A stretch of 64,000 nt of DNA from Enterocytospora artemiae (taxonomy: Eukaryota; Microsporidia): NCBI GenBank assembly GCA_038659295.1, contig JASNGC010000001.1, positions 186,001 to 250,000 on the forward strand. Reading direction: 5' to 3'. Shown here one piece after another: positions 9,590-58,084 of the stretch; within the stretch, counting starts at the first letter, position 1; each line of letters starts with the position of its first letter. The notes beneath the pieces were generated by a model, which had not been told where the DNA came from, did no database searches, and saw only the letters and a list, made by a program, of their open reading frames with translations. Made by a program: the position numbers and the translations under genes.

Positions 9590-10081
9590 ATGAGGGTAAA
9601 ACTAATTTTACATTGACAAAGGCTTAGTCGAAATTGTTCTATATTATAAGACCAAAAGGTCTATGCAATCCAATGTGCCCGAAATTTTTCGAGATACTAC
9701 CATGATTGAACTGTGTAAAATTACAAATCATAAAAAAATACAGATTACTTCTGAATATTTTATTGATTGTTGGATAATATTGTGGATTATTGTGTAGGTA
9801 TTCCAATTATTCAATATCTACGGGAATTTCAACGAATTTAAAAATATTGCTTTGCAACTATAATAAACAATCCCATAATTTCTCCTAACTTTGAATCAAA
9901 TTGTAAAGTCAACAATATATATTGAGATAATTTTTTAGCTTCGGTCAGATAATCCTTATATCACATAGTTGATATTTTCCTATTTTGTAACACAAGAATA
10001 TTTACAAAACCTACCATACAGAAGAATTATATCTTTTATCCAATATCTTCATATCCTATATTATACTAAATCAGGATTTTC
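9590..10081. other. intergenic region, no gene seen
   Basis: 492 nt between the end of PRP8 and the start of MSH6, very AT-rich. Neither strand holds a convincing frame. It is too short for the Jab1/MPN domain (about 220 residues) missing from the upstream Prp8. It presumably holds the PRP8 3' end and the MSH6 promoter. Confidence 0.6.
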
Positions 10082-13000
10082 CTACTCCAAAAGCGCTTTA
10101 ATATTTTTCTCTAATTCAATCCATTCTGAGGAGCTACCATTTTGCAAAACCAGCTTGATCCGATCTAGCATCAATTTTTCATCATTAATCATGTTGGAGC
10201 TTATCTTTGTTCGAGTTCCAGAAGCGCTTGAGTAGGAAAGAAATTCCAAAACCAATTTCAGTCGTCTATAGTTCGTGTACTTGGTACTGTTGTTACTATA
10301 TATATTTTGAACTCTTTTAAGATTGCTTATCATAGTTTTTAGATACTTCAAATTCATTGGTCTGTCCATAACCTTATAGTTAATTTTATAGTCGTCATCC
10401 ATGGTGACTCGTTCATTATAACAGCCATACTCCAATCTACTTACGGCTATCGTAGATATATTTAACTTTTTAGCGTGACGAAGGACAAACTCTACAGGAG
10501 AACGATTATGATCCTTTTTAGTTTCTAGCTTATCTATAGCCTGTCCATGTGGCTTCTGGGCTAGATATTCTCTAACAGAACCCTTGTGGTCTGAGTCTGG
10601 AGCCTTTGGGCCCTGATTATTTAATTCATAAAAATACAGATTGCCTGTTTGGGGAATTAACATAAATACCTCATTTTTGAATGTTTCTGCAATCATCTCC
10701 ACTCCGTATTCATCAATTTCCAGTAAACTTTCTGCCGAATAATTTATTGAGAGAGCTGTTCTAACCCTTTCCCTTAAAATGCATATAAAGTGATTGTTAT
10801 AGATAAACTCTGTTAAGATGGCATTCAAATCTGACAAATATGTTTTCAAAGCAAAATCGTCCATATCTGAAATGGTATGTGGTTTGATTGTAGGGACCGG
10901 ATATACAGCACCAGTTGTACTTGAAATTACCCGTATGGAATACTCCATTTTGCACAAATCAACAATAATATAGTATGAAAAGCTGGATGGCAATTCATTA
11001 TTCATGTCTAGTAGGTTATAACAAGCATTACTCCTATTGATATCATCTTCTGGAACTGTGTTTTGAATCATTGTATCTATATTGGACCAAATTAATGATA
11101 AATGAATATCAGATGATATCTTACAAGTGGATGCATATTTTTTATTCTCAAAAGCATTTGTTTTGGGCATATTCCTAGCAAAAGATGAAGAACATTCTTC
11201 TAACCTTGTTTGATTTAAACCATTGCTGTGACATAATGTGCCTCTAATTTCTTGAACTAGTTCATTGTAAATCTTCTGCCACAGCTTATTACGGAATATC
11301 CCCACGTAAAAACTCTTTAAATTATTTAATTTCCCATACATATCAATGTTAGTGTGTTCAATACTGCTGCGATATCCCATATATACCCCAGAGCGATTTA
11401 GCACAGGTGACCACCACAGAACAAATCTTCTATTAGGAAGTAAAATAGAACCTCTAGCCTGGGCATGTGTTGAGTGTGTATAGGCAGGAACATCCCATAG
11501 TGATTGAATATTAGATATTTCCGATGACACTTGATTAATTTTACATTTGTAACTCTCATTACTATCTGTTCTTTTCATGGTTATTGTTGAATATAAAGTA
11601 TATGACAGTATTTTTTCTTTACCTCCAAAGTACTTTAAAATGGATTTCTCATAGTTTAATCTATCAAATGTTTTTGGATGGTGAAAAATCGGACGAGGAT
11701 TTCTGATAGTTGAAAAAGTAGAGAAATAATTCCTTAATTGGTCAAAGTGGCCTGGTACATTGCTAGATAAAAGCATAAAATCCAAAATAGATGGCAAACC
11801 AGTGGTGTTGTTTGAACAGCAATGTGCATTGATATCTTCATTGCTCTTAATTTTATTGTTCCCGCAAGAGTACATCCCCAATCCTCCTAACTCACGTGGA
11901 GAGTAAAATATTACATCGGGAAACCTTACGGCCATCTTGCTATTTATTCCCCTCTTAATGCACATTTTAACTCTTTCCTCTTCTTTTAATAGTTCTTCAT
12001 TTGTAATATATTTATGCCCACCCGAATAAAACAAATCATGTAATAATATGTTATATTGATTTATAATTTTTAGAAATGGTTTGCCTACGGAATTTTTAGA
12101 AATGTTACTGATTCCTAGGATATATTTTACTTTAATATTATTTAAGATTTCATTAGAATCTCTATCAATTTCATAAGTATTATTAGACTGGATGGGGCCA
12201 TTTGAAGACCTCTTCGACATTGATGCCTCATCTTGCAACAGGTCATTATCCCCTAGAGAGTTTAAACTATTTGTGCAAACACTGTGGTCTAATGTAATGC
12301 CACAGTTACACTCCTCAATATATTTAAAACTCCTCCCAGAAATTGTCATTATAATACAATAAATATAGGAAGCAAATTGGAAACCAGGAATTACCCCTAT
12401 TCTGTTTGTATATGTAATGTCCTTATATTGAATTCTGCATGCACACCTTGCGATGATATAATCTGCTAGGATTGGTGATAAAAAAATTCGTAAAAGCCGG
12501 CTTAGTAAATTAAGATCAATTTTAGAAAGTACTCCAAAAATACATCGGTCACAGTACTTTTTAGTGAGGAATAAACTAGTGTTGGTTTTATCCCATAAAT
12601 ACTTGTTTAAGATGCAATCAGTTAATTTGTCAAAATATAGCATTTTCCAGTAAAATACCACAACATCTAGACATTTTGATTTCAATTTTATATCTGTGAA
12701 GACTCGTTTGGATAGAAGGGATTGAATAACATTTGTAAGTGGATCACTATTGATATCAATATCCATAAACCCTATCGATTCTAATCCTGATAAATTCTTT
12801 GATCTCAATTCTGAATTAAAAAAGTCCATGGTTTGGTCTTCCCTCTCTAATTTTTTCAAAGATCCTTCATAATCTAGTGCACCCTTTTTAGGAAATTCAA
12901 TAAAGAGGGGATTTATCTGAAAAAATTCTAATGCATCTTTGTACAATTGCAGGTTATCTCCAAAGCTTACAATATAACTGTTATATCCTTGATATTCGTG

Positions 13001-14731
13001 ATATAGTAAATTATCATCTTTTACTGTTTTTTGCCTATACATTTCAGATAATGCATATAATCTAGTCCTCTTTCCAACTTGCTTCCTTCTTATTGATATC
13101 TTTCTTGACAGTTTTTTATAAGCCGACGCCTTATAAATTTCGATTCTTTTCATAACCGCTGTCTCGACAACTTTCGTAATATCAGACATATCGAGAAGAG
13201 ATTCAGATATCTGATAAATATTATGACATTTTTCTAATCTGACCATGTCTATAGTGCCTGATTTCCACTGTTTCCATTGTTTGGAATACATGGATAAGAC
13301 ATAATTTACAATAATAGATTTATTAGGAACTTTAACTTGTTGATTTGAGAGAGGATTATCGGTGGTATGTCCAAGCATTGGACCATTTCGACAACTAATT
13401 GGCGTATTACACAAAATCAGGTTTTCCCTTTGTTCCCTCACTCTTTTGGAATATACATCACCAAGTCTTGATTCAATTTCTTTCCTAATAAATTCACGTA
13501 TTTTCCTATCTACATTTGATTCTTCTCTTTGCGAAGTTTCGTCTAATAGTCCTGTGTGTCGTCCTGAGGATTCCCTTTCAATAAAATTCTGCCAATGCGA
13601 TTCTAGAAGTGGAATCAATCCCCTAAACATAAAACACCAAGTACGCCACTCAATTGCCCAGCACAAATTTAAGAACATTCCTCTTTTGTACCTATTCTTA
13701 TCACTGATTTTAAAATCATTTGCCTTACAAAGGGAAATTTGTTTGTTTATGGAATATTTGTATCTATAAATTCCCGTTAAAATTCCAACATTTGAAAAAA
13801 CATACTTCAGGTGAAAAGCAATATTTTTTTCTCCAGTGATCCCACCACTTTGACTTTGTATATTAAATACTATATTTAATAGTTTTAATAATTCTCTAGT
13901 AATGTGGAAAGTGGCTCCTAAATTGCTTCTTTTCTTCTCTTTTGTAGTCAGCTGTCTTACAGATTCCAAATCAAAGTTTTCAGTAATCTTTAAGAACGAA
14001 TGTTTTTTATGATACAGTATGTTTTGAAGTAATTTTCTACCATTCATCAGAATAAATGATACTGCCTGAGACCAATCCATGGTGGTAATTTGAAAGTTTT
14101 TGGTATTTTTCAAAGTGTTAATGAGTAAATTGGATTGTCGAGAAGTAGATTTGGCTGGTTTTGTTTTGTTAATCCTTAGTGATCTTTTAGAATAGCGGTC
14201 CATCATTTTAAGAGAAATGTTTACAACCCTTTGCTTCTTTCTGTGAGCTCGATATAGGTAGTTGTGCAATTCATTGCTCTTAAGAGTTCCATTTGAAGCA
14301 TACTTATGATAAATTCTACTGCAGATGAATTTGTTGCTTTTATCTGATTGTTGCATTGTTTTGTCATTATATCTTGTTTTATGTTTATCATGGTAGATAA
14401 TTTGATTCAAAAGAGAATTGAGATCATTCAATATGGGCGATACTGGTCTATCCTGATACATTTTATTAATATCATTATCTAATGCACCAGAACTGCAATG
14501 CTTACTCCATTTCTCCTTATATTTTATCTCACTTATTCTATAGCTATCTTTTATAAGACCAATTAATCCTTTTCGATGAAAAACCAATTGAACCTGTTTA
14601 TTTGGCTGCCATGGCATAGGAATAGATTGTATTGCGGAATGTATAGAACGTGGAAGCAACTTAGCAAAAGAAAATGATTTATTATTTGATTTCAACAGAA
14701 TAAATGGAAGTTCTTGTGGTGTAAGATGCAT
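10082..14731 (-). CDS. PRP8: Pre-mRNA-processing factor Prp8, shortened, without Jab1/MPN domain
   Basis: Central U5 snRNP protein that cradles the spliceosome active site. The N-terminus matches the start of the Prp8 core (LLPRSIHSAIQSIPMPW against family PHAVLKLLENMPMPW). Later blocks also match: WSQAVSFILMNGRKLL, LTTKEKKRSNLGATFHI, RYKYSINKQISLC, and the palm-region KIDLNLLSRLLRIF near residue 735. The RNase H-like domain starts near 1250. The protein ends with SEWIELEKNIKALLE, matching the EEWIKVEVQLKDLIL segment that in other Prp8 proteins comes just before the Jab1/MPN domain. That C-terminal domain, about 270-300 residues that bind Brr2, is absent. At 1549 residues the protein is far below the usual 2,200-2,400; the N-terminal domain is also condensed. 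CCCCC lies 5 nt before the ATG. Its presence implies that splicing persists. Confidence 0.88.
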   Translation of the reverse strand: MHLTPQELPFILLKSNNKSFSFAKLLPRSIHSAIQSIPMPWQPNKQVQLVFHRKGLIGLIKDSYRISEIKYKEKWSKHCSSGALDNDINKMYQDRPVSPILNDLNSLLNQIIYHDKHKTRYNDKTMQQSDKSNKFICSRIYHKYASNGTLKSNELHNYLYRAHRKKQRVVNISLKMMDRYSKRSLRINKTKPAKSTSRQSNLLINTLKNTKNFQITTMDWSQAVSFILMNGRKLLQNILYHKKHSFLKITENFDLESVRQLTTKEKKRSNLGATFHITRELLKLLNIVFNIQSQSGGITGEKNIAFHLKYVFSNVGILTGIYRYKYSINKQISLCKANDFKISDKNRYKRGMFLNLCWAIEWRTWCFMFRGLIPLLESHWQNFIERESSGRHTGLLDETSQREESNVDRKIREFIRKEIESRLGDVYSKRVREQRENLILCNTPISCRNGPMLGHTTDNPLSNQQVKVPNKSIIVNYVLSMYSKQWKQWKSGTIDMVRLEKCHNIYQISESLLDMSDITKVVETAVMKRIEIYKASAYKKLSRKISIRRKQVGKRTRLYALSEMYRQKTVKDDNLLYHEYQGYNSYIVSFGDNLQLYKDALEFFQINPLFIEFPKKGALDYEGSLKKLEREDQTMDFFNSELRSKNLSGLESIGFMDIDINSDPLTNVIQSLLSKRVFTDIKLKSKCLDVVVFYWKMLYFDKLTDCILNKYLWDKTNTSLFLTKKYCDRCIFGVLSKIDLNLLSRLLRIFLSPILADYIIARCACRIQYKDITYTNRIGVIPGFQFASYIYCIIMTISGRSFKYIEECNCGITLDHSVCTNSLNSLGDNDLLQDEASMSKRSSNGPIQSNNTYEIDRDSNEILNNIKVKYILGISNISKNSVGKPFLKIINQYNILLHDLFYSGGHKYITNEELLKEEERVKMCIKRGINSKMAVRFPDVIFYSPRELGGLGMYSCGNNKIKSNEDINAHCCSNNTTGLPSILDFMLLSSNVPGHFDQLRNYFSTFSTIRNPRPIFHHPKTFDRLNYEKSILKYFGGKEKILSYTLYSTITMKRTDSNESYKCKINQVSSEISNIQSLWDVPAYTHSTHAQARGSILLPNRRFVLWWSPVLNRSGVYMGYRSSIEHTNIDMYGKLNNLKSFYVGIFRNKLWQKIYNELVQEIRGTLCHSNGLNQTRLEECSSSFARNMPKTNAFENKKYASTCKISSDIHLSLIWSNIDTMIQNTVPEDDINRSNACYNLLDMNNELPSSFSYYIIVDLCKMEYSIRVISSTTGAVYPVPTIKPHTISDMDDFALKTYLSDLNAILTEFIYNNHFICILRERVRTALSINYSAESLLEIDEYGVEMIAETFKNEVFMLIPQTGNLYFYELNNQGPKAPDSDHKGSVREYLAQKPHGQAIDKLETKKDHNRSPVEFVLRHAKKLNISTIAVSRLEYGCYNERVTMDDDYKINYKVMDRPMNLKYLKTMISNLKRVQNIYSNNSTKYTNYRRLKLVLEFLSYSSASGTRTKISSNMINDEKLMLDRIKLVLQNGSSSEWIELEKNIKALLE

Positions 14732-15522: not shown

Positions 15523-17424
15523 TTACTTATCTTCTCCAAAGCAGGAAATGATTTCAGATTGAAACACTTTATCAAAAACTCTTCTTTTTTTCTTGAAAGA
15601 TGGAGTCAACAAAACACCATTATCATACTCTATGAACGGCTTATGAATAACTCGACAAAACGCTGGAATTTCATACTTATTTATCTTATTCTCAGCAAAT
15701 AATTCATTACCACGAGATTGAACTTCCAGCAAAACATCCATGTCTTTAATAGTTTTATCAGTGCACACAGCTATGGCCATGATTTTATCAGAATATCGCC
15801 CTCCAGTGATGTAAATATCTTCAATATTCCCCCCAGTGAAGAGATTTTCCAATGTTTCTGGGACAATATATTCTCCGTAACTGGTTTTAAAAATTTCCTT
15901 CTCCCTCCCAATGGTGTACAATAAACCATTCTCAACCTTCACAATATCTCCAGTTTTGAGCCACCCATCTTCAGTGAATAACTCTGCCGTTTGCTTCTCT
16001 CTCTTATAATATCCTTGTGTTATTGCAGGTCCTTTTAATAGCAAATGGCCTGAATTCTTTTCATATCCATCAACTTCCTGAATCTTAACACACGTGCTAA
16101 CGTATGGGACTCCAATAGTAGAGCTATCATGAATAGACATAGGCTGGATAGTACTAGCAGCTAAACTTTCTGTTTGGCCATATCCCATACAAATGTGGCA
16201 GGAAAGAACAGATTGTAAAAAATCCTTTACAGAGGGATTTAATGATGCCCCACCAATTAGTATATACTTGATGTTTCCACCAAATTTTCTAGATACCTTC
16301 CTGAAAATAAAACGGTCCAACAAAAATGAAGAATATTGTCCTTTTTTAACCAATTTTTGTTTCCATTCTACAGCCTTATTGAATATCCATCTTACTATAC
16401 AGTTGGATTAGTCAACATTAGATTGGATTTTTGATTGAAAAACATTCAGTACCCTGGGTACTGCACCAATAAACATCGGCTTAATTATTTCAAAATCTTC
16501 TTGGAGCATTTTTGGTTGTCCCCTGTAAAATCCAATTTTAACATGATTATCAATCATAAATGCAAAAACAATCCTTTCGAAGACGTGGGCCAACGGAAGA
16601 TATGAAATGTATGACTCTCCTCTGCACAATTTCACCATGTCATCTGGAAAAGCTGGCATATTCAAGGCGGTAGTCTGGGAAATGAAATTTTTATGAGTTA
16701 GGATAACACCTTTCGGTTCACCTGTGGTTCCACTAGTGTAACAAATGCTAGCTATACTATCAGGAGAACATATCCTTTTGGAATTTACATCTGTAGAATT
16801 GTCATTATCGTCGGCATTGCAAGAACTGCCCCTCATATGAACATCATTATGTGTTAATATTTTTCCTAAATCATATACTTGAACATCAAATGCTTTAAAA
16901 TTTTCAACATATTTGTCGTCAAAATCCATTAATATAATGTGACTAATACTCGAACTACTATTTTTTAATATACTTTGCAAGAGGAAAAGTGCTTTATCTG
17001 TGGAAGAAATTATAACCCTCAGATTAGTTTCTTGTATTATCGAAACTAATGCGTCAGGTTGAAAAGAAGTGTAAAGTGGCACATTTGGACAGTTTACCAT
17101 ATACCCTGCATATTCTGCAATAATCCATTCCGGTCTGTTGTTACTTAGAAGTCCGATGTTTTCTCCCTCCGTAGTTATCTGCCTCAAGAAAGATGCCAGA
17201 TTTGTGATTTTGTTGTAGACCATAGTATTTGACATATATTCAACATTATTCTTTACAATTTCCCCAAGAAAATCATCATCTGGAAATGCCTTAACTCTTT
17301 TATTCAGCAAATCCAAAAGAGTTAGTTTCTCGGTTTCTACCTTAGTAACCAAGCTGTCATAGTTAACATGCTTCATTTCATTGTTGCTAAAAATGATTCT
17401 ACCGCTCATGCTATCCAATTTCAT
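15523..17424 (-). pseudogene. Long-chain acyl-CoA synthetase with one in-frame stop
   Basis: ATP-dependent fatty acid-CoA ligase (AMP-binding family), paralogue of the divergent gene at 18525. The N-terminal half (350 codons) holds ICYTSGTTGEPKGVILTHKN and SYLPLAHVFERI; the C-terminal half holds YGQTES, GWLKTGDI and GREKEIFKTSYGEYI. The halves are joined in the same frame across a single TAA at 16408-16410. Aligned without gaps to the neighbour (VSQKNFLVRCIF against VD-stop-SNCIVRWIF), the stop falls exactly on a Gln codon, so one C-to-T change explains it. Without the stop the product is 633 residues, close to its 645-residue neighbour. Nothing else is decayed. The start at 17424 is chosen because CCCCC lies 10 nt upstream. 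Recent pseudogene, readthrough gene, allelic variant and sequencing error remain possible. Confidence 0.8.
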
Positions 17425-17434
17425 TGTTAAGTTA

Positions 17435-17439
17435 GGGGG
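17435..17439 (-). promoter_or_regulatory. CCCCC start motif of the interrupted acyl-CoA synthetase
   Basis: Five Cs on the minus strand, 10 nt before the ATG at 17424. This excludes the longer frame start at 17460, whose extra codons run through the motif itself. Confidence 0.5.
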
Positions 17440-17875
17440 AAAAATATAACAAATTATCAAAAGAAACTATTATCTGATAAATTTAAAGAGAAAATAGTTA
17501 ATAGTTAATTCAAATAAATATTGCCTGACCCATTAACTTTCTGACAAATATCCTTTTAATGTCGCATATTAAGATTAATACTGAACCTCAAATGGTATAT
17601 TTATTTACTACTGAGTTTCAAAAACTTAATTTGGTAATTCAAGAACACACACAGCCTGCATATACTTGAAGTACAATCATTAAGTTGCCTGTTATATTTG
17701 TCTGAAGATACTATGGAAAGAATAACAGATCTTCTAAGTATTAAAAGAAATGTTTTCTGTTTAAAATATTTAATTTTCATATATTGCATACATACAGTGT
17801 AGTAATCATGTAAATGTATACATACTACACAGAGCTATTTAATACTTGGTTTTTTGAAAATTTTATTTTGGATTC

Positions 17876-18524: not shown

Positions 18525-20462
18525 ATGTTGCGGAAGATAATCAGCAAGGGAAATGTTTTTAAACATATCAATTTCGACAATGTTATGAAAGAGACACCCA
18601 CTGGAGACAAAACCCTTTATGAAGTTTTTACAAATAGATTAAAAATAGATCCGAATGGCGAATTTTTAGGTTCTATCATAGGAGGAAAACTTTTGTATGA
18701 AACCAATCTACAAGTTAGTGAAAAGATTATCAAGCTGGGAAATTTTCTCAAGACTATTCTCAAATATGGTGAGTTTATTGGGATTTACAGTATAAATAGG
18801 CCAGAATGGACCATCACCGAGTATGCTGGATATTTGGCAAACAATCCTAATGTGCCACTATACTCCACTTTTCAGCCAGAAGCAATTTTGCATATTTTGA
18901 AGGAAACCGAAATGGAAGCTATTGTGGCTTCTTCTGTTAAGGCTAGGTCGCTTTTTGAAAATGTGCTTAGTGATTACCATTGCAAGCCTACATTAGAGCC
19001 AGATGCAGGAGATAATAGTGCCGACAAAACAGAAGCATCAGATGGCAATTCTAAAAGCAGTTATCGGGTTAATTTAAAGCATTTGATTTTAATGGATGAT
19101 GACGATAGTTCTATAGAGGAATCTTATAGGTCCCGTGGAATTACTGTGCACAGACTTACCAAAATTTTCCGAGATTCTACAATGACAGATGGTGCTATTG
19201 AAAAAACTCCTTGTACTCCAAGTGATATAGCTACTATTTGCTATACAAGCGGAACTTCGGGAATGCCAAAGGGTGTTATTTTAACACATGAAAATTTTGT
19301 TAGTCATATTTCAGGGTTTTGTAATGCAGCTACTGAAAATGACATTCCACGTCTCAATTACGATACTGTTTATATGTCTTATCTACCTCTTTCACATGTT
19401 TTCGAAAGAATTTGCTTTTCTATGACTGTGATGAAATCTTGTAGAATTGCATATTTCAGGGGCGATGTGAAATTACTACAAGACGATTATTCTATAATTC
19501 AGCCAACATTCGTTGCAGCAGTTCCCAGGGTTCTGAATATTTTTGAAGAAAGAATTTTGAAGGAGGTTAGTCAGAAAAACTTTTTGGTGAGATGTATTTT
19601 TAAGATAGCTATGAAATATAAAAAGTGGAGACAGAAAAGCGGGGTGTTCGAAACGCCAATTGTGGATAGACTTGTTTTTAAAAAGGTTGCTGATAAATTT
19701 GGTGGAAAGCTAACCAATTGTCTTTGTGGTGGCTCCTCAATAAATCCAGAAACTTTGAGTTTTATCCAGGCCGCACTCTGTATGAGAGTGTTTCAAGGGT
19801 ATGGCCAAACCGAAGGATTGGCTGCAAACATTGTTCAGCCTTTAGATTATATCGAAAGCGATACTGTTGGGGTGCCGTTTCCATCTACTCAAATCAGACT
19901 GGAGCCTGTTGATGGCTATCCAGCAAATTGTGGGGAAATATTGATGAATGGACCATCTATAATGAGTGGCTATTACAAGCAACCTGGATTGACTGAAAAA
20001 GCATTTATCTACATTGAGGGAGAGAAATGGTTAAAAACTGGGGATATTGCCAAATTTGAGAACGACCGGTTCTATATTGTGGGTAGAGTTAAGGAGATGT
20101 TTAAGACAAGTTATGGAGAGTATATTTCTCCAGAACATTTGGAAAATTACTTTACTGGAGGACTTATCAATGATCTATTTATATGTGCTCATCCTTACTC
20201 AGATGGCTTAATAGCTATTATTTATTCTGAAGATAACCTTACAAAGAGAACAGCTTTGTCAATCTTAAGGGAAAGAGGTAATGAGTTGGTGAATGAAAGA
20301 AAAATCAATAAGTATGAAATCCCCGCTCATGTAATCATTACAGCGATTCCATTTATTGAGCTAGATAGTGGAAATTTAATCACTCCATCTTTTAAGAAAA
20401 GAAGATTGCGTATTTATGAGTACTTTGCAAAGGAAATTGAAAAAGTAGAGTTATCTAAATAA
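18525..20462 (+). CDS. Long-chain acyl-CoA synthetase (fatty acid-CoA ligase)
   Basis: 645-residue member of the AMP-binding family. It activates long-chain fatty acids, probably scavenged from the host, to acyl-CoA for lipid synthesis. Motifs in order: NRPEWTITEYAGY near residue 88, the P-loop ICYTSGTSGMPKGVILTHEN near 240, SYLPLSHVFERI near 285, the YGQTEG motif near 425, the adenylate-binding WLKTGDIAKF near 505, GRVKEMFKTSYGEYISPE near 522, and the C-terminal TPSFKKRR. This order and the fatty-acid signature fit the eukaryotic ACSL/Faa group. The ATG at 18525 directly follows CCC. A near-complete paralogue lies head to head upstream, so the pair probably arose by inverted duplication. AATAAA overlaps the stop. 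No signal peptide is seen; membrane association is likely but inferred. Confidence 0.9.
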   Translation: MLRKIISKGNVFKHINFDNVMKETPTGDKTLYEVFTNRLKIDPNGEFLGSIIGGKLLYETNLQVSEKIIKLGNFLKTILKYGEFIGIYSINRPEWTITEYAGYLANNPNVPLYSTFQPEAILHILKETEMEAIVASSVKARSLFENVLSDYHCKPTLEPDAGDNSADKTEASDGNSKSSYRVNLKHLILMDDDDSSIEESYRSRGITVHRLTKIFRDSTMTDGAIEKTPCTPSDIATICYTSGTSGMPKGVILTHENFVSHISGFCNAATENDIPRLNYDTVYMSYLPLSHVFERICFSMTVMKSCRIAYFRGDVKLLQDDYSIIQPTFVAAVPRVLNIFEERILKEVSQKNFLVRCIFKIAMKYKKWRQKSGVFETPIVDRLVFKKVADKFGGKLTNCLCGGSSINPETLSFIQAALCMRVFQGYGQTEGLAANIVQPLDYIESDTVGVPFPSTQIRLEPVDGYPANCGEILMNGPSIMSGYYKQPGLTEKAFIYIEGEKWLKTGDIAKFENDRFYIVGRVKEMFKTSYGEYISPEHLENYFTGGLINDLFICAHPYSDGLIAIIYSEDNLTKRTALSILRERGNELVNERKINKYEIPAHVIITAIPFIELDSGNLITPSFKKRRLRIYEYFAKEIEKVELSK

Positions 20463-25744: not shown

Positions 25745-26851
25745 TTATTCTTCCAAATTTCCAGAATACACTTGTGGAATATTGTACCGAACCATGTTAT
25801 ATTCAGGCCTTAACTTACCGAACCATGGTGTATACTTATATTCGTTCATTTTATACCGTTCGTTCGTAGCTGTTCCATCAATCCACGATAGCAAAAATAA
25901 ATCCATATTTTTTGCCATACTAGTTAAATTGTTGACTTCATCAGATAGCTCAATATGAACACCTACAATATGATTCACTGCACCCTCCTCACTTTCGAAC
26001 ATCTTATGGCATTCCATACATCTTATTCCATCACGAGAGCTATGGAAGTACGGCTTCAGCCATGATGAAGACTCTTTTAAGGAATCAAGTAAAGACCTTC
26101 CGTCTTTGAACAAATCTATAAAGAGTTCTAAGGTCCTATGAGATGGAAATGTCCTCTCATGAGAAAATCCACAAACATCATACATTTGAATTTCTGAATC
26201 AAACCTAATATTGCAGGTTGTGCAATATAAAAAGTCCTTTCTCAACTGCTTTGTAAGTTCCTTGGCAGTTAAACCTTCAATGTCTATCTCTACTGATCCC
26301 TCAAGCCTCATCCCCATGGATTCTAAGTTTTCATATACACTTCTCAGTTGTTTTTCGCTGAAGTTATCATTATCATCAACAATTTCTTGAGAAAATGTAA
26401 AACTTTTCAAATTTTCAACAGGAAATCTACTCAATATATACAAATCCCTTTCAAAATTATAGTCAAACCCATTCTGACAAATATGCATTCCATCAGCTTT
26501 ATTTCCATACCTTTCAAATATTTCACTAGTCGATCCAACCACATGCTGGATACGATACCAAGAACCTTGACTTCTATCCTCAAGGTTATTCGTAAAATCA
26601 AACCTACCATCGTATTTGTTTCCAGAAAGATATCTCTCCTTAAACCAAGGCTTTTGTTTAAACCTTTCTAAGCATTCTCTAAAAATATTTGCATAGTATT
26701 TTATTCTATACTGTTCATAGCATCCATTGGGGATTATAGAAAGGAATTCAGATTTGGTCAGAACTCTAAGCTGTTGAAGCAGCTGCTCCTCATCTATCTT
26801 ACCGCTTAGATCGCAATTTTTATCATCAGCCAGCTTTCTTTTCTGATTCAT
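25745..26851 (-). CDS. Ars2/Serrate-like zinc-finger protein
   Basis: 368 residues. Three blocks match Ars2 (animals), SERRATE (plants) and Pir2 (fission yeast) in the right order. First, residues about 32-75: LTKSEFL, a YEQYRIKYYANIF helix and PWFKERYLSG, against family TFKQFL, YNDYK and EWFRSKYHP. Second, the core segment FLYCTTCNIRF...YDVCGFSHERTF (about 208-234), against the family's SLDYYNTCEY and GIIHVR. Third, a C2H2 finger with Cys278, Cys281, His294 and His299, against [20 protein letters not shown], followed by a helix and an Arg-Tyr-Asn C-terminus. Ars2 links the nuclear cap-binding complex to RNA processing and decay. The usual RRM and long acidic linker are missing or very short. 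CCC lies 2 nt before the ATG. Plausible, not certain. Confidence 0.55.
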   Translation of the reverse strand: MNQKRKLADDKNCDLSGKIDEEQLLQQLRVLTKSEFLSIIPNGCYEQYRIKYYANIFRECLERFKQKPWFKERYLSGNKYDGRFDFTNNLEDRSQGSWYRIQHVVGSTSEIFERYGNKADGMHICQNGFDYNFERDLYILSRFPVENLKSFTFSQEIVDDNDNFSEKQLRSVYENLESMGMRLEGSVEIDIEGLTAKELTKQLRKDFLYCTTCNIRFDSEIQMYDVCGFSHERTFPSHRTLELFIDLFKDGRSLLDSLKESSSWLKPYFHSSRDGIRCMECHKMFESEEGAVNHIVGVHIELSDEVNNLTSMAKNMDLFLLSWIDGTATNERYKMNEYKYTPWFGKLRPEYNMVRYNIPQVYSGNLEE

Positions 26852-56596: not shown

Positions 56597-58084
56597 TTAA
56601 CCAAGCTTTGAACGATCATTTACTGAGATGATTGCATGTGAAACTTGATTCTTAAGCTCTGATGTATTCTCTAGAACTGCAGTGATAGTATCAGGTGACT
56701 GCTTCATTATTGATTCTGCAATAATTTCTGCGAATTCACCCTGATCTGAAGCATTTACACTTTTCCAACTTTCGACATATTGTGAAGCGATGGGCATGAT
56801 TAAAGAGATCAATTTCTTTCGACACTCTTCCTTTGAATTTCTAAACCTCGTGGTGTAATCCGGAGATGAAACTCCATTGGATGTGTTATTCTCAAAGTCC
56901 CTCTCATATTTATTCTTGTAAACCAGTAGTTCCAGTTGGTTTCCATCCAAAAGTACTTGCCTACTACGTTCCAGAGCTATCGCAGCCTCCTCCAAAGTAG
57001 CATAACAGACAAATCCGTACTGCTTTGTCGGATGAAGGGTATCCTTTGCAAGATAGATATCTGTAATTTCGCCAAATTCTTTCAATACACTGAGAATTTC
57101 CTCCCTTGAAAATGTTTCAGGTACATTTTTGATGTAAAGATTTTTCTTTAGTTTTGAGCTGGTAGTCAAATTGGAGTTTGTTTGTTCCTTAAAAGAATCC
57201 ATTCTATCTTTCTTCTTCTCTGCCTTTTGAATGTAGAATGGTTCAACAACAAACTCAGGATCCTTTTCCATTTCTTCATTCGTAAATATTCTCCTATCAT
57301 GCAACTCGCTTATAGCTTTAAGAGCATTTTCAGGCTTCTCAAAGTTTGCACATGCAAAGCCCACAGTCATTCCATTAGGTTTTTCTGGAAAATACATTTC
57401 CGTGATCCTACCGTATTTCTCCAATAATTCCTTCAAATTCTCCTTGGTATAGGATGGAGGGAAGTTTTTAATAAAACAGTTTGTGAAAGACGATGAAGCA
57501 GTGTGATTAACATTTCTTTTGCATTTTGAATTATCAAATAATTCAACCACCAATGCATTGCTGCCAATTTTGACATTTTTGCAGCTTGCAACAGCCCTCT
57601 TAGCGGATTTACTGGATTTATACTTTACAAACCCGTATCCCTTGGACTTCCCATTCTGATCGGTCGAAATTTTGCAGCTAACAATCGTCCCAAATGCCTG
57701 AAAAATAGCATCTAAATCCTTAGCAGCCATCTCTTCTGGGAGATTATTTACAAACACGTTACTCTCATCCTTATATTTATTTTGTGGATCATAAACTGTC
57801 ATGATTATTTCTTTCTCATGTAGCTGCGTGTAGTTAAGGGTTTCCACTGCTTCTTCTACAGCTTCAATGGTGTCAAGATAAACGAAGGCGAAAGAATATT
57901 GGTTGTTAGGAGTCTTTTTCAAAACAACATTCGTCACGTTAAAATCTCCAAAAATAGACTTAAGCTCCGATGATGTGGTTTTTAAGGACAAATCCCCACA
58001 GTGGATTATCGGCTGTCTCATCTGCGTAACTTCTGCTGCTTTTATTGTTAGATTATTCAAGCTAGTGCTAAGATCGTTATTCAT
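56597..58084 (-). CDS. PAB1: Poly(A)-binding protein
   Basis: 495 residues with four RRM domains at about 20-97, 108-180, 200-275 and 313-390; RNP1/RNP2 motifs are clear in RRM2 (VFVNNLP, KGYGFVKY), RRM3 (CFIKNFP, VGFACANF) and RRM4 (LYIKNVP, YGFVCYAT). After a short linker (about 395-415, much shorter than the usual Pro-rich one) comes an MLLE/PABC domain (about 415-490) with the family's helices (KKLISLIMPIASQ, GEFAEIIAESIM, LENTSELKNQVSHAI), but the KITGMLLE motif itself is altered to EIIAESIMKQS. Binds mRNA poly(A) tails, promotes translation and stability. CCCCC lies about 10 nt before the ATG. Confidence 0.92.
   Translation of the reverse strand: MNNDLSTSLNNLTIKAAEVTQMRQPIIHCGDLSLKTTSSELKSIFGDFNVTNVVLKKTPNNQYSFAFVYLDTIEAVEEAVETLNYTQLHEKEIIMTVYDPQNKYKDESNVFVNNLPEEMAAKDLDAIFQAFGTIVSCKISTDQNGKSKGYGFVKYKSSKSAKRAVASCKNVKIGSNALVVELFDNSKCKRNVNHTASSSFTNCFIKNFPPSYTKENLKELLEKYGRITEMYFPEKPNGMTVGFACANFEKPENALKAISELHDRRIFTNEEMEKDPEFVVEPFYIQKAEKKKDRMDSFKEQTNSNLTTSSKLKKNLYIKNVPETFSREEILSVLKEFGEITDIYLAKDTLHPTKQYGFVCYATLEEAAIALERSRQVLLDGNQLELLVYKNKYERDFENNTSNGVSSPDYTTRFRNSKEECRKKLISLIMPIASQYVESWKSVNASDQGEFAEIIAESIMKQSPDTITAVLENTSELKNQVSHAIISVNDRSKLG

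Follow-up and report, generated by a model that had tools for sequence, protein, structure and literature searches.

A divergent microsporidian Prp8 that ends at its RNase H-like domain, without Jab1/MPN, in a genome retaining U2 and U6 snRNAs

The window (the whole stretch of DNA analysed, 64,000 nucleotides) carries on its reverse strand a 4.6 kb frame (10082-14731(-)) that is uninterrupted across 1549 codons, from an ATG start to a TAG stop at 10082-10084, and encodes a Prp8 protein of 1549 residues. Five Pfam families score above their cut-offs and lie in the Prp8 order: PRO8NT, which includes the IQSIPMPW motif (PF08082, 39.1 bits; residues 22-77, 14501-14668(-)), PROCN (PF08083, 152.2 bits; residues 169-425, 13457-14227(-)), RRM_4 (PF10598, 53.4 bits; residues 737-792, 12356-12523(-)), the U5 snRNA binding site 2, U5_2-snRNA_bdg (PF10597, 61.7 bits; residues 876-961, 11849-12106(-)), and the U6 snRNA interacting segment, U6-snRNA_bdg (PF10596, 110.3 bits; residues 1018-1163, 11243-11680(-)). 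The RNase H-like domain (domain IV, residues 1338-1549, 10085-10720(-)) is also present, and terminates with the protein. Prp8 chains in the PDB match the ORF with a best E of 9.7e-84, while the Pfam scan of the protein gives no match at E<=1 to PF12134, PROCT or JAB. The first-pass annotation had described an intact Prp8 frame from IQSIPMPW to the RNase H-like domain and a condensed N-terminal domain, and we see both. The alignment behind the structure model misplaced about 70 residues at the start of the slice, and use of the model was confined to its later part.

It is at the C-terminus that the protein departs from its homologues. Alignment with 14 other Prp8s, and BLAST, place its end where the RNase H-like domain finishes, the last helix, SEWIELEKNIKALLE (10085-10129(-)), being followed by the stop codon; in the other Prp8s the chain runs on into the linker and Jab1/MPN. 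The 492-nt intergenic stretch 3' of the gene (9590-10081(-)) holds stops in all frames and no Jab1/MPN similarity, and Pfam, the alignment and Jab1 profiles all fail to find a C-terminal Jab1/MPN with PROCT in either the ORF or these 492 nt. Both had been proposed from the letters alone, that Prp8 stops before Jab1/MPN and that the 492 nt after the TAG are closed in every frame, and both are confirmed. As Jab1/MPN is absent, we name the protein Prp8 without Jab1/MPN and not a complete Prp8, and there is a high likelihood that the loss is real. A 5'-splice-like GTAGGA overlaps the stop codon.

Such an ending is rare. A Jab1/MPN profile, itself built from 14 of the same proteins, matches 101 of 106 database Prp8s. 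The five without a match (P0076, P0082, P0088, P0096 and P0102) are 77-85% identical to the canonical P0009, and their BLAST match to it ends at its residues 1747-1862, the window protein reaching the equivalent of 1997; their short stray tails suggest they are gene-calling fragments. The 14 of the 106 taken for the C-terminal alignment all extend into the linker and Jab1/MPN, whereas the window Prp8, with a far more diverged core, has neither. Up to that point its domain order is that of eukaryotic Prp8/PRPF8, including the short P0001, P0006, P0007 and P0008.

The nearest likeness in architecture is to seven proteins (P0001 and P0003-P0008) that we call short divergent Prp8s, since the label 'microsporidian-like' rested on their shortness and on a tree with long-branch warnings. 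Like the window Prp8 they have a shortened N-terminal part, and in the alignment they lack all or most of the RNase H beta-hairpin stretch, as does the window protein (10085-10720(-)). A profile that draws on just seven canonical Jab1 domains detects the Jab1 of all seven short proteins (27-51 bits) and gives no match in the window Prp8. PROCT is annotated in six of the seven, and all keep an R..HF motif in the Jab1/MPN tail, which we read as human R2310 and F2314, two residues that are reported to contact Brr2 and to be mutated in retinitis pigmentosa (PMC3677097). Its retention in 7/7 suggests that docking of Brr2 is conserved in those lineages. Two of the database Prp8s, P0005 (recorded under Menopon gallinae and contamination-flagged) and P0100 (Kocuria palustris), bear names under which a Prp8 implies that the assemblies seem to contain foreign eukaryotic DNA.

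The core that remains has drifted far. In 25 other Prp8s, chosen from the 106 for the conservation analysis and tree, 182 alignment columns are invariant; the window protein keeps 112 of these (61.5%), with gaps at 22. When the window row is removed and other proteins are left out one at a time, P0100 keeps 94% and P0002 88%, neither having close kin in the set, and P0001, P0006 and P0008 keep 100%, 96% and 95%, figures flattered by the close kin that stay in it. Retention along the window protein is uneven, being best in the U5_2 segment (16/18) and in U6-binding residues 1082-1170 (24/29), intermediate in the PROCN part (34/46 in residues 185-450), and least in the RNase H-like part (6/15), residues 962-1081 (5/21) and the N-terminal part (0/2). 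The branch leading to it in the Prp8 tree is 6.48 changes per column long, with long-branch warnings, against 0.54 in a separate tree for a helicase of the same species (below). Judged from these sequences, the drift may signal a relaxation of constraint and not a simplified machine that works.

The gene lies in a genome of 3,015,070 bases in five contigs, which may lack pieces. Its SSU rRNA matches the microsporidian model RF02542 over positions 1-1311 of 1311 with 1179 bits, as expected of Microsporidia, five of 45 candidate loci having been scored with that model alone, which also matches 9/14 prokaryote controls. Of the five contigs, four have scored rRNA genes (L005-L009, five in all) close to an end, and C1 has them close to both, a placement expected of near-complete chromosomes.

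The genome bears spliceosomal RNAs, with U2 and U6 retaining functional sequences. U2 snRNA scores 52.0 bits (Rfam cut-off 46) and keeps GUGUAGUAUCUGU; U6 snRNA scores 57.6 bits (cut-off 44) and keeps AGC and the CUGCGCAAGGA core. In U6 (L010:1501-1601; G000:C1:329689-329789 +) the usual ACAGAGA box is replaced by ACUGAGA, whose pairing partner at intron position +4 would be an A. A U4 candidate falls below its Rfam cut-off (26.6 against 46 bits); it has a 5' stem-loop, and its pairing with U6 could include a stem I of 7 bp and a stem II of 16 bp. In a simpler calculation the U4/U6 duplex has an energy of -39.6 kcal/mol, ~2.3 SD under the mean, -29.0 (SD 4.6), for 200 shuffles of its letters, the lowest of which reached -43.3 kcal/mol; with a gap of this size the duplex energy by itself lends only moderate support. 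We regard the candidate as a probable U4. U5 snRNA has no Rfam match in the genome. An ORF of 368 aa (25745-26851(-)) considered as SF3A3 has no PDB match at E<=0.001, and Pfam finds zinc fingers in it and, weakly, SERRATE/Ars2; not being SF3A3, it is left out as evidence of a U2 snRNP.

Two protein partners of the Prp8 extremities were sought. The GTPase-domain family has 13 matches in the genome, of which 12 were read, the thirteenth being a 253-aa frame; six translational GTPases are, by their motifs, what we take to be EF2, eRF3, EF1A, eIF5B, EFL1/Ria1 and eIF2gamma, and there is no Snu114 among the 12. Scored against human EFL1 the EFL1-like gene reaches 99.9 bits, compared with 92.5 for the best EF2 and ~46 for human Snu114. 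A published survey likewise reports Snu114 as lacking in Microsporidia (PMC4342817).

The Sec63 family matches one gene, a single-cassette Brr2/Slh1-type helicase of 1168 aa (G000:C5:224852-228355, +; L018:1352-4858) that is the sole family member found. Its DEAD, Helicase_C and SNRNP200_wHTH domains and part of Sec63 (profile positions 31-143 of 252) are shared with both Brr2 and Slh1 (ASCC3), but these have a second cassette, which it lacks. A search with the helicase itself finds three further genes, by motif presumably Ski2-like, Mtr4-like and one other Ski2-type. Neither this nor the Sec63-family search finds in the genome a two-cassette Brr2 with a Sec63 unit in each; the Brr2 search suggested at first pass yields a gene of the family but not Brr2 in its two-cassette form. 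Nor is the protein a two-cassette Slh1/ASCC3, in which it resembles the other members of its clade, 16 single-cassette proteins (including those of Glugoides and Pancytospora) with which it groups at 100/100. Proteins of this clade are ~1000 aa long, and five related ones are also partial for the Sec63 profile, to position 140-203 of 252.

Which of the two paralogues the helicase represents is answered differently by different evidence. It carries the Slh1-type QIFGRAGRPQ motif, the best tree, with a single Brr2 row, joins its clade to the Slh1 N-cassettes (support 45/91), and a residue vote over 38 positions gives 18 to Slh1, 9 to Brr2 and 10 to other, with one gap. Against this, the AU test does not reject one clade of the single-cassette helicases and human Brr2 (p 0.186), and the cassette scores 376 bits with human Brr2 and 364 with ASCC3. 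The sequences lean towards Slh1, and as tree, vote, AU test and cassette scores disagree we have dropped either outright label; the last two results mean that 'Brr2 absent' falls short of proof. The tree used 36 chosen of 120 listed proteins (593 found), P0108 being dropped as it has no single stretch passing the length limit, and canonical Brr2s above 2044 aa could not enter the list, so that its richness in Slh1 is by itself no evidence. On Brr2 the surface to which Jab1/MPN docks is reported to lie in the N-terminal Sec63 unit, in its ratchet and FN3 parts (PMC3677097). As the Sec63 match covers profile positions 31-143 of 252, some of that surface, if not all, is unrecognisable in this helicase.

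We favour, with a probability of about two in three, the view that this is a genuine Prp8 whose Jab1/MPN was lost cleanly at a domain boundary as part of a broader reduction of the U5 particle. In other organisms the Prp8 N-terminal domain docks Snu114, and its condensation here would go with the failure to find Snu114. At the other extremity Jab1/MPN would have gone alongside the two-cassette Brr2, on which it is reported to dock and which it stimulates (PMC3677097). What is best kept, the U5- and U6-contacting segments, is the lining of the RNA core, and the pared-down Prp8 may still scaffold the U2/U6/U5 active site. U4/U6 would then be opened without control by a Prp8 tail, either through the single-cassette Brr2/Slh1-type helicase, working unclamped by Jab1, or through a different one. 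Our best reading is of a real loss of Jab1/MPN together with its partners, in a spliceosome that is either minimal but working or disappearing. The conserved snRNAs, the RNA-core residues kept and a long frame that is still open speak for function; the drift of Prp8 and the want of recognised introns speak for decay. The more specific proposal, that splicing works with a U5 particle of little more than core Prp8, without Snu114, canonical Brr2 or Jab1/MPN, and with U4/U6 opened independently of Brr2 or by an unclamped one, is put forward tentatively.

The strongest rival, somewhat less probable than even that proposal, is that splicing is being lost altogether, Prp8 being a relic under relaxed selection that shed its tail first, with few or no introns left and the snRNAs lingering or reused. 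The extreme divergence of Prp8, not shared by the helicase of the same species, accords with this, as does an intron scan with two consensus patterns, in which GTAAGT...ACTAAC...AG gives 2 matches against 14 for its reversed-pattern control, and GTRAGT...CTAAC...AG gives 13 (two at one place) against 82. Every one of these 13 and 2 matches was inspected and falls within an open ORF or in intergenic DNA that has short frames, and none is a credible intron. The Glugoides and Pancytospora with whose proteins the helicase groups lie near Enterocytozoon and Vittaforma, which are splicing-less. The absence of splicing from these last two is reported in PMC4435813. However, the reversed control is composed of different base words, which leaves the depletion uncalibrated as a test. 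Against the relic also stand the open 4.6 kb frame, the 24/29 and 16/18 invariant residues kept in two RNA-binding segments, the U2 and U6 sequences named above and a U4 candidate able to pair with U6. The marked simplification envisaged at first pass is partly supported, in the clean loss of the tail and in the presence of U2, U6 and a probable U4, but working splicing gains nothing from the intron scan. The setting is more extreme than the first pass described, since neither Snu114 nor a two-cassette Brr2 was found and Prp8 evolves very fast.

A good deal less probable is that a separate, very divergent gene provides Jab1/MPN in trans, or that a distant exon encoding it is spliced to Prp8. 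The GTAGGA across the stop, and the R..HF docking motif kept in every other short Prp8, are what might be expected of it. In the genome, searched in six frames and exon by exon, the JAB family matches exactly two genes, by motif presumably Rpn11 and Rpn8, and PROCT, searched in six frames with a set lacking a positive control, has no match at E<=10; PROCT is a family annotated in 6/7 of the short Prp8s. The more sensitive Jab1 profiles, run on the window and on 59 loci that overlap in part (208,304 bases), give 8 to 13 matches at E<=10, with a best E of 0.079, which we judge to be chance. The top match of all four profiles (6.6 to 11.0 bits) is a Jab1-like peptide, WNYWF...LRITHPMEF (56812-56976(-)), with ~26 aligned residues in an out-of-frame stretch of 55 aa within another ORF; ten shuffles of the window reach a best Jab1 profile score of 8.0 bits, and it is the in-gene position of the peptide, not its score, that leads us to take it as chance. 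Given the PROCT set and the reach of the profiles (window and loci), a very divergent separate Jab1/MPN could escape. The genome search for a supplier, as first suggested, returns only the Rpn11-like and Rpn8-like genes, and of the two options then offered, a Brr2 free of control by the Prp8 tail is the better fit, ahead of a separate supplier.

A false stop through assembly or sequencing error is very improbable, for although the acyl-CoA-synthetase-like ORF elsewhere in the window has an in-frame stop, no frame past the Prp8 stop regains Jab1/MPN similarity in the way that that ORF resumes its own, and the Prp8 end coincides with a domain boundary. In that ORF (15523-17460(-)) the single in-frame stop is at 16408-16410, and similarity to the neighbouring 18525-20462(+) continues on both sides of it. 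An intron-split gene is rejected there, the frame being whole save for this one stop, and such stops do therefore occur in the assembly.

The reduced spliceosomes of Encephalitozoon, other microsporidia and mikrocytids have few components, as here, and the snRNAs named for mikrocytids are U2, U4 and U6, the same set if our U4 candidate is counted, but in the available parts of these papers (PMC3629993, PMC4435813, PMC10245619) loss of Jab1/MPN from Prp8 is not described. Nor is a Prp8 without Jab1/MPN described in the titles and abstract openings returned by a literature search of CC-licensed PMC papers. The cryptophyte nucleomorph is reported to lack U5 snRNA yet to keep Prp8, Brr2 and Snu114 (PMC6461891). 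Prp8 and Brr2 are reported in most splicing-less microsporidia (PMC4435813), and we suspect that the Brr2 of that report may be of the single-cassette type found here.

In man, mutations in Jab1/MPN are reported to cause retinitis pigmentosa (PMC3677097). A lineage that keeps its splicing RNAs while the Jab1/MPN tail is gone, and in which neither Snu114 nor a two-cassette Brr2 is found, would show which parts of the machinery for spliceosome activation are dispensable. Alternatively, it would be a snapshot of a spliceosome in the course of being lost. Either way, it would provide a natural test of whether the Prp8-Brr2 clamp is needed for the unwinding of U4/U6.
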